Shown one piece after another: positions 21,135 to 23,518 of a DNA stretch of 64,000 bases. The notes beneath the pieces are model-generated. The model ran no database searches. It worked only from the letters and a program-made list of their open reading frames with translations, and was not told the origin of the DNA. Where the stretch lies: positions 186,001 to 250,000 of the forward strand of contig NZ_CP034864.1 of NCBI RefSeq assembly GCF_005080885.1, in the 5' to 3' direction. The stretch's first letter is position 1, and each line of letters begins with the position of its first letter. Source of the stretch: Buchnera aphidicola (Macrosiphoniella sanborni). GTDB taxonomy: Bacteria; Pseudomonadota; Gammaproteobacteria; Enterobacterales; Enterobacteriaceae. A program made the translations under genes and the position numbers.

Positions 21135-21230
21135 TATAAAAAATACAAATTAAATATTTATTTTATGTTTTTTAGACAAAAGTATTAAATTAAATACAAG
21201 TATTAAAAATCATATATAAAGGAACTGTTA

Positions 21231-23518
21231 ATGCATAATATTAAAAAAAAAAAATATTCATAAAAGTATTTTTTTCTGTTTTATTATTAATTCTTTTTTA
21301 TGGATTTTATTTATATGTTAAAATCAATCAATTAATTAATGGAAAAATATGGAATTTCTCAAATTCAATATACGGTCGTATAGTAAATTTAGAACCAGGT
21401 AATAATGCATATTCTCAAACAGAAATATTAAATATTTTAAAAGATACTATGTATAGAAAAGTAGATTGTGTAATGTTACCGGGAGAATATAGTGTAAAAA
21501 ATAATGTCATAGAATTTATAAGACGTTCTTTTGATTTTCCTGATATAAAAGAAGGAGAATTTTATACACAATTATTATTTGAGAATAATCTTCTCAAAGA
21601 GATTAAAAATCTTGAAAATGATCGCCATTTTAGTTTTTTTCGTTTAGAACCTAAATTGATTTCTATATTATCATCTCCTCAAGGAGAAAAACGTATTTTT
21701 GTTTCTCGTGATAAATTTCCAAAAATGTTAGTTAAAACACTTTTATCTGTTGAGGATAAACATTTTTATGAACATGATGGTATTCATATATCTTCTATAA
21801 TAAGAGCTTGTTTAGCTAATATAACAGCTGGTCGTGCGATTCAAGGTGGAAGTACGCTTACTCAGCAATTAGTAAAAAACTTGTTTTTAACAAATACACG
21901 TTCAGTTTTAAGAAAAATTAATGAAATATATATGGCATTAATTTTAGATTGTTTTTATACCAAAGATCGTATTTTAGAATTATATTGTAATGAAGTGTAT
22001 TTAGGTCAAGATGGTGATGAACAAATTCGAGGATTTCCATTAGCAAGTATTTATTATTTTGGATGTCCAATAAATGAATTAACTTTAGATCAATATTCAT
22101 TATTAGTCGGAATGGTAAAAGGACCATCTTTATATAATCCTTGGAATCATCCTATTTCTGCTTTAAAAAGAAGAAATTTAGTTTTATTATCATTATATAA
22201 TCAAGAGTATATCACAAAAAAAAATTATCAAGATTTATCTAAAAAATCTTTAAATATTCAACCTAAAGGTAATATTTTTTCACCTCATCCTGCTTTTATA
22301 CAATTAGTATCTGAAGAATTTAAAAAAAAAATAAAATATCCAATTGAGCATTTTTCAGGTATAAAAATTTTTACAACTTTTGATTCTATTTCACAAAATG
22401 CATTAGAAAAGGCTGTTGAAATTGGTGTGCCTATATTAAAGAAAAAAAAACAATTAAAAGATTTAGAAACAGCGATGATAGTTATAGATAAATTTACAGG
22501 TGAAGTGCAAGCACTCGTTGGAAGTGCTACACCAAAGTTTCATGGTTATAACCGAGTATTAAATGCTCGTCGTTCAATTGGTTCATTGTCTAAACCAATA
22601 ACTTATTTAACTGCTTTGTCACAACCTAATAAATACCATTTAAATACTTGGATTTCTGATCGTCCAATTGCAATTAAATTAGATAATGGAGAATATTGGA
22701 TTCCAAAAAATAATAATTTTTATTTTAGTGGAAAAGTTATGTTATTAGATGCATTAATTCATTCAATTAATATTCCTACGGTTAATCTGAGTGTAGATAT
22801 AGGTTTCGAAAAGTTAGTTGATCATTGGTTAAAATTAGGTATATCTAAAAATCATATTTCTCTTTTTCCATCAATATCTTTAGGAGCTATTAATTTAACA
22901 CCTATTGAAATAGCTCAAGTATTTCAGGTTATTGCAAATAGTGGTGATAAATCGTCATTATCTTCATTGAGATCAGTTATATCAGATAATGGTCAAGTAT
23001 TTTATCAAACTTTGCCCCAATTAGAACATGTAGAATCTGCTGAAGCTTCTTATTTAACATTATATGCTATGCAACAAGTAGTAAATAATGGTACAGCGAA
23101 ATCGTTAGGAAAAAATTTTAAAGAATTTTCTTTAGCGGGAAAAACTGGAACTACAAATAATTTGATTGATAATTGGTTTGTAGGAATTGATGGCAAACAA
23201 GTAGTTATTACATGGATAGGAAGAGATAATAATGAAACAACTAAATTATATAGTGCTTCTGGAGCAATGAAAATTTATGAAAGATATTTACAATATAAAA
23301 AACCAAAACCATTAGTATTAATACCGCCAAAAAACATTAATATGTTTTATGTTGATACATTAGGAAGATTATTTTGTAAAAAAGATCATCAACATCATCG
23401 AATAATACCAATATGGAATTTAAAAAATAAAAAAATTTGTGATGCTGATACAGAATTAGAATATTATTCAATAGATAAGAAAAAAAATATTTTATCTTGG
23501 TTTAAAAGTTTATTTTAA
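21231..23518 (+). CDS. mrcB: Penicillin-binding protein 1b; reading frame requires slippage at an A12 tract
   Basis: Bifunctional murein glycosyltransferase and transpeptidase. ATG 21231 with AAGGAACTG upstream opens MHNIKKKK and then stops at TAA 21261. After A12 (21243-21254) the +1 frame reads IFIKVFFSVLLLILFYG FYLYVKINQ, the expected type II membrane anchor, then SIYGRIVNLEPG and the whole enzyme. Adding one A (or removing two) joins them into about 762 residues. Without it, the first ATG in the catalytic frame is 21449, giving a protein with no anchor. Glycosyltransferase motif EDKHFYEHDG; GGSTLTQQLVKNLF; transpeptidase SLSK, SxN (SIN) and KTGTT are intact, so selection has kept the gene. 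Confidence 0.85.

Follow-up and report, generated by a model that had tools for sequence, protein, structure and literature searches.

Out-of-frame start of mrcB at a poly(A) tract, shared among Buchnera species and probably corrected by transcriptional slippage

The mrcB gene of Buchnera from Macrosiphoniella sanborni raises the question of how PBP1b can be produced when its start codon and its membrane anchor lie in different reading frames. This genome of 632,796 bases, with a leucine plasmid closest to that of the Buchnera of Uroleucon ambrosiae (84.5%), is denoted G000 below, and the other G numbers denote related Buchnera. In the window, that is, the whole 64-kb stretch of DNA that was analyzed and to which the coordinates of the mrcB locus refer (all features are on the + strand), a Shine-Dalgarno-like AGGA (21220..21223) is located 7 nt 5′ of an ATG at 21231, and GGA or AGG motifs are also found 5′ of the corresponding ATG in many Buchnera relatives. 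From this ATG, frame 0 enters an A12 tract (21243..21254), the proposed slippage site, and terminates after 10 codons with a TAA at 21261; the product of the uncorrected transcript of this short ORF (21231..21263) would be the peptide MHNIKKKKYS. The frame of PBP1b is open from 21245, and its first ATG, GTG or TTG is the ATG at 21449, so that the membrane anchor and the start of the UB2H domain (21254..21448) are left without a standard start codon. The main ORF (21449..23518) is intact and consists of 689 amino acids from this first in-frame ATG, including UB2H, the GT51 transglycosylase and the transpeptidase. To join the two frames, the message needs 13, or 10, A, and the addition of one A to the run yields MHNIKKKK-IFIKVFFSVLLLILFYGFYLYVKINQ...SIYGRIVNLEPG. 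An earlier note on this DNA had described the ATG with its ribosome site, the A12 tract and the ensuing stop, all of which are reproduced exactly, and had proposed that one added A joins KKKK to the anchor and an intact PBP1b, which is borne out by translation, alignment and domains. The break falls at codons 5-8 of mrcB, ahead of the membrane anchor, and about 91% of PBP1b remains in a single ORF, so that a filter used in the literature to recognize broken genes, which requires truncation to less than 80% of the length (PMC3164680), would miss it. A12 is not rare in the conserved ORFs of G000, which contain six A12 and four A13 runs. On the coding strand of these ORFs, runs of at least 9 number 424 for A vs 54 for T.

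Read from 21254, the frame matches E. coli PBP1b (5fgz, E 1e-273) in an alignment that starts at its 6th residue and spans the protein from within the membrane helix almost to the end. The score against TIGR02071, the PBP1b equivalog, is 1113 bits (cut-off 718), which places the protein in the PBP1b family, and the UB2H, Transgly and Transpeptidase domains are all recognized. In this reading, UB2H starts at residue 51 whereas the ATG at 21449 corresponds to residue 66; a product initiated at 21449 would therefore have no anchor, and its UB2H would be short by about 15 residues. A Shine-Dalgarno-like site was looked for at this ATG, and none was found. Initiation in frame upstream of the run is ruled out by a TAA in the PBP1b frame (21242..21244), and in G016, G026, G027 and G032 a comparable stop separates the ATG from the run. 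The use of a non-standard start codon (AUA, AUU) beside the anchor, for which ATA or ATT codons in the right frame are available directly 3′ of the run, appears extremely improbable given that no Shine-Dalgarno site is found near these codons and that a conserved ATG with its own site sits upstream, out of frame; the TTG codons that could serve as starts in some relatives lack conservation, and none is present in G000 upstream of 21449.

The mrcB gene was sought in 36 Buchnera species, in 24 of which the start could be read (among them G016, from Uroleucon ambrosiae, hereafter Ua; G029, from A. pisum; and G026, from Myzus persicae). The start is in frame in 12 of these species (G006, G029 (A6), G003, G004, G008, G010, G013, G014, G017, G018, G021 and G033), whereas 10, perhaps 11, need one additional A and one, G016, needs one fewer. 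The run that needs +1 is A10 in G002, G009, G011, G012, G026, G027 and G032, A11 in G022, A12 in G000 and A13 in G019; in G007 (A10), +1 is needed from the ATG with the ribosome site, and a second, in-frame ATG lies upstream. Thus, the inspection of the run in related genomes, which the earlier note had proposed as a check, finds the tract out of frame in 11-12 of the 24 species, so that the break in G000 is more than chance. As judged from the genome sequences, the mrcB break is not private to G000, and it is newly recognized here as widely shared.

The same comparison bears on the possibility that A12 is an assembly error, or that run lengths are mixed among chromosome copies such that intact DNA copies exist. 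Although A12 is hard to sequence, the out-of-frame state recurs in about 10 other assemblies, and its phase is almost always the same. Buchnera is polyploid, and deep sequencing of Ua and Ak revealed single-base indel polymorphism (PMC3164680), in line with mixed copies; however, only about seven single homopolymer breaks are present in G000, comparable to the 8-18 of finished Aphidinae genomes (PMC3164680). We consider an origin of the break in assembly or in mixed copies quite improbable.

In the protein tree of mrcB, one seven-species clade is wholly in frame, and the remaining species, including the symbionts of Myzus, Acyrthosiphon and Uroleucon, are mostly out of frame; the four start states require 7 changes on this tree, and equally few are obtained in 5 of 200 shuffles. 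Five diverged species from two clades (G002, G009, G011, G026 and G032) have in common the form ATG..-T-A10-GAAAAAT.TT, from which the in-frame G003 differs by two bases fewer before the run, the run length being the same. Accordingly, the lesion of the five-species group may have arisen by the insertion of two bases 5′ of the run, and parsimony suggests that in these species the A run may be where the frame is restored and not where it was broken. The persistence of the A run was considered as an unusual feature in itself and dropped, given that approximately 30-46% of coding runs of A9 or longer persist between species.

The main argument for in-frame reading of the anchor comes from its conservation as protein. 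Between out-of-frame species of the groups just described, the pN/pS of the anchor is 0.16-0.37 (G032-G011, 0.16; G026-G009, 0.22; G009-G022, 0.26; G002-G032, 0.28), compared to 0.15-0.40 for pairs including intact starts. The out-of-frame anchor of these species thus appears to be subject to about the same purifying selection as in the intact relatives, and the frames evidently are joined in the cell. Selection appears more relaxed among G000, G016 and G019, which form a clade, with pN/pS of 0.51-0.56 for the anchor and 0.33-0.45 for the body (0.56 and 0.33, respectively, for the G000-G016 pair); for the whole ORF, the G000-G016 pair yields a pN/pS of 0.38, the 75th percentile of 483 genes. 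The raised values in this clade could be taken as signs of early decay, whereby mrcB in the G000 lineage has been silenced by the frameshift too recently to have gathered further lesions, and the same direction is indicated by the degraded or missing mrcB in about 12 of the 36 species, although murG is kept in 35. Nevertheless, all three members of the clade are out of frame, which suggests that the break is old, and yet their bodies are full-length open frames; moreover, both anchor and body are still constrained in species with the shared break. Early decay therefore seems rather unlikely. In the absence of selection, 0.05-0.17 substitutions per site should have introduced 7-23 nonsense changes into the 689-codon ORF of G000, but no further lesion was found there. 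The hallmarks of a pseudogene, lost constraint and further lesions, are not seen in G000 mrcB. The gene instead displays the sequence-level features of a slippage-rescued poly(A) frameshift gene, namely a 1-nt break at a run of at least about 9, an otherwise intact sequence under purifying selection (weaker in the G000 clade) and conservation of the break between species.

Two routes are available for joining frames at an A run: polymerase slippage, which operates from a length of about 8-9 A, and ribosomal −1 frameshifting, for which 7 suffice in the presence of stimulators (see also PMC3711429). Ribosomal frameshifting on A_AAA_AAA would join the frames during translation as in dnaX, which shares with mrcB a slippery site rich in A and the net change of frame: the tandem slippery AAA codons are in the correct phase, and −1 yields the needed frame. 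However, the stimulating elements of dnaX were not found at mrcB, where the heptamer is accompanied neither by a stable downstream structure (z −0.86) nor by a Shine-Dalgarno element at stimulating distance, and every out-of-frame copy has at least 10 A where 7 nt would suffice. The absence of out-of-frame copies with fewer than 10 A, together with the absence of structure and of a spaced Shine-Dalgarno element, favors polymerase slippage and makes the ribosomal route distinctly unlikely. Runs of at least 10 are found in 12 of 12 out-of-frame copies vs 6 of 12 in-frame copies (Fisher p 0.014, uncorrected for kinship), although indels, too, arise more readily in long runs; the shortest runs among the in-frame copies are 5 A.

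The best reading of these observations, to which we assign a probability of about 0.65, is that mrcB is a live gene, the break in which is corrected during expression by transcriptional slippage at the A run. RNA polymerase would slip backward on the run and add one A in a fraction of the transcripts; the corrected transcripts would give rise to full-length anchored PBP1b and the rest to the 10-residue peptide. The break could be tolerated if little PBP1b suffices, or if some lineages can do without it. In Buchnera, the errors that arise during transcription of A/T runs are mostly single-base insertions and increase exponentially with run length up to 11 (PMC5574713), so that an A12 tract in need of +1 lies in the rescuable direction. 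In comparable symbiont genes, the corrected fraction of transcripts is 12-50% (PMC5009743) or 30% (PMC3017870). Similarly to mrcB, the tssM1 gene of Citrobacter rodentium involves +1 slippage, in that case at A11, where about 20% of the transcripts are corrected and encode the full-length product as determined by mass spectrometry of cDNA (PMC4256274); however, both tssM1 products are needed, whereas the short product of mrcB, a 10-residue peptide, has no likely role.

Slippage had also been the reading of the earlier note, and as the best explanation it is now backed by comparative evidence, namely the shared break, the constrained anchor and the runs of at least 10; the uniqueness and the essentiality that the note implied are not supported (see below). 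A stronger version, under which the out-of-frame start is a conserved set-point and the amount of the only class A PBP is set by how often slippage occurs, is considered unlikely. Under this scenario, the ancestor of Macrosiphini Buchnera would have moved the ATG out of frame through two extra bases before A10, and selection would since have maintained a run of 10-13 A in the phase that needs +1.

The murein enzymes of G000 include one GT51 protein (mrcB), two transpeptidases (ftsI and mrcB) and one SEDS protein (ftsW), which makes PBP1b the only bifunctional polymerase of this genome. The claim that no other frame of a complete murein pathway is broken is valid for the mur/fts cluster that was checked, the genes of which (ddlB, murC, murG, ftsW, murD, mraY, murF, murE and ftsI) are all full length in the window. 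An apparent break in G000 murF (233,623) proved to be an artefact of the broken Ua reference, the G000 gene being intact. The implied essentiality of mrcB, by contrast, is not supported, given its loss or wreckage in about one third of the Buchnera species, nearly all of which retain murG; in G012, one of the species that need +1, the mrcB body is decaying as well, and murE is whole or nearly whole in most species. Thus, mrcB is not indispensable, and the murein pathway can persist after the loss of PBP1b, which may explain the tolerance of a leaky start. As murG is nearly always intact, the species that lack mrcB appear to go on making lipid II in the absence of a class A PBP.

Rescue by transcriptional slippage of frameshifts at poly(A) tracts in Buchnera and Blochmannia was reportedly described by Tamas et al. 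in PNAS in 2008, and ancient frameshifts in homopolymers that are maintained by selection are said to have been found by Wernegreen et al. in 2010. Slippage rescue in these two symbionts is cited in passages of PMC5009743, PMC3164680 and PMC3017870. The 2008 cases resemble mrcB in that a single base breaks the frame within a long A tract, in genes of AT-rich insect symbionts that are otherwise intact and still constrained, and cell-wall genes are among those published; mrcB, examined here at the DNA level, differs in the position of the break, before the anchor, with most of the protein in one ORF. As in the 2010 cases, the break in mrcB is common to several species and the gene is not decaying, whereas Buchnera mrcB shows several architectures and switches between in-frame and out-of-frame states. 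The mechanism of slippage rescue is thus already known, and the shared case of mrcB is new; no earlier mention of a Buchnera mrcB frameshift was found in the literature searched, although the 2008 study may list one. With the same gene and the same tract in or out of frame across two dozen symbiont species, mrcB represents a natural series that allows direct testing of slippage rescue and bears on the question of whether breaks of this kind are damage that is put up with or are retained to control the dose of the sole bifunctional murein polymerase. It also illustrates that a broken frame can be concealed behind the annotated start of a symbiont gene.

The mrcB break is not unique within G000 either, where at least six other genes are broken at runs of A9-A13. 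Breaks at A9 or longer were compared among four genomes (G000, Ua, M. persicae and A. pisum) using at least two reference genomes; G029 was covered minus 40,000 masked bases and G026 minus the last 3.5 kb, and the partial G033 was excluded. The breaks in G000 that need +1 are in tilS (A11), nth (A9), rsmC (A11), ybeY (A10) and recC (A13), and tsaB (A10) needs −1. Ua has +1 breaks in ispA, murF, lolE, fabD and a holB-like gene and a −1 break in tsaB; M. persicae has one −1 break and five +1 breaks, one of which lies in truA, immediately 5′ of mrcB; A. pisum has five +1 breaks, including ddlB, fabD and lolE. The holB-like, rnhA-like and nadD-like genes are named from sequence resemblance alone. 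Altogether, with the three mrcB cases included, 22 of the 26 breaks need +1 (22 vs 4; by gene, 17 vs 3), a bias that fits rescue by +1 and that deletion-biased mutation would give, too.

Several of the individual breaks merit mention. The recC gene of G000 is out of frame at A13 (C1 ~479,872), with +1 needed, and tsaB, with −1 at A10/A11 in both Uroleucon-type genomes (G000 C1 351,068; G016 C1 345,995), is an exception to the +1 rule. A genome scan for start-less genes was noisy owing to the extension of mechanical ORFs to upstream GTG or TTG codons, and an apparent start-less gene at about 460,600 in G000 turned out to be prfB, in which a programmed frameshift is normal. An rsuA/rluB-like pseudouridine synthase gene (G000 C1 298,106) is out of frame near residue 22, at a site without a long run. 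The gene for the essential tRNA-modifying enzyme TilS is split in G000 (C1 ~114,841, outside the window), G019, G020 and G030. Finally, 10 of the 36 Buchnera species (G016 C1 367,992, G029 C3 384,384 and eight more) have the essential fatty-acid gene fabD split near residue 155, possibly another long-kept frameshift.
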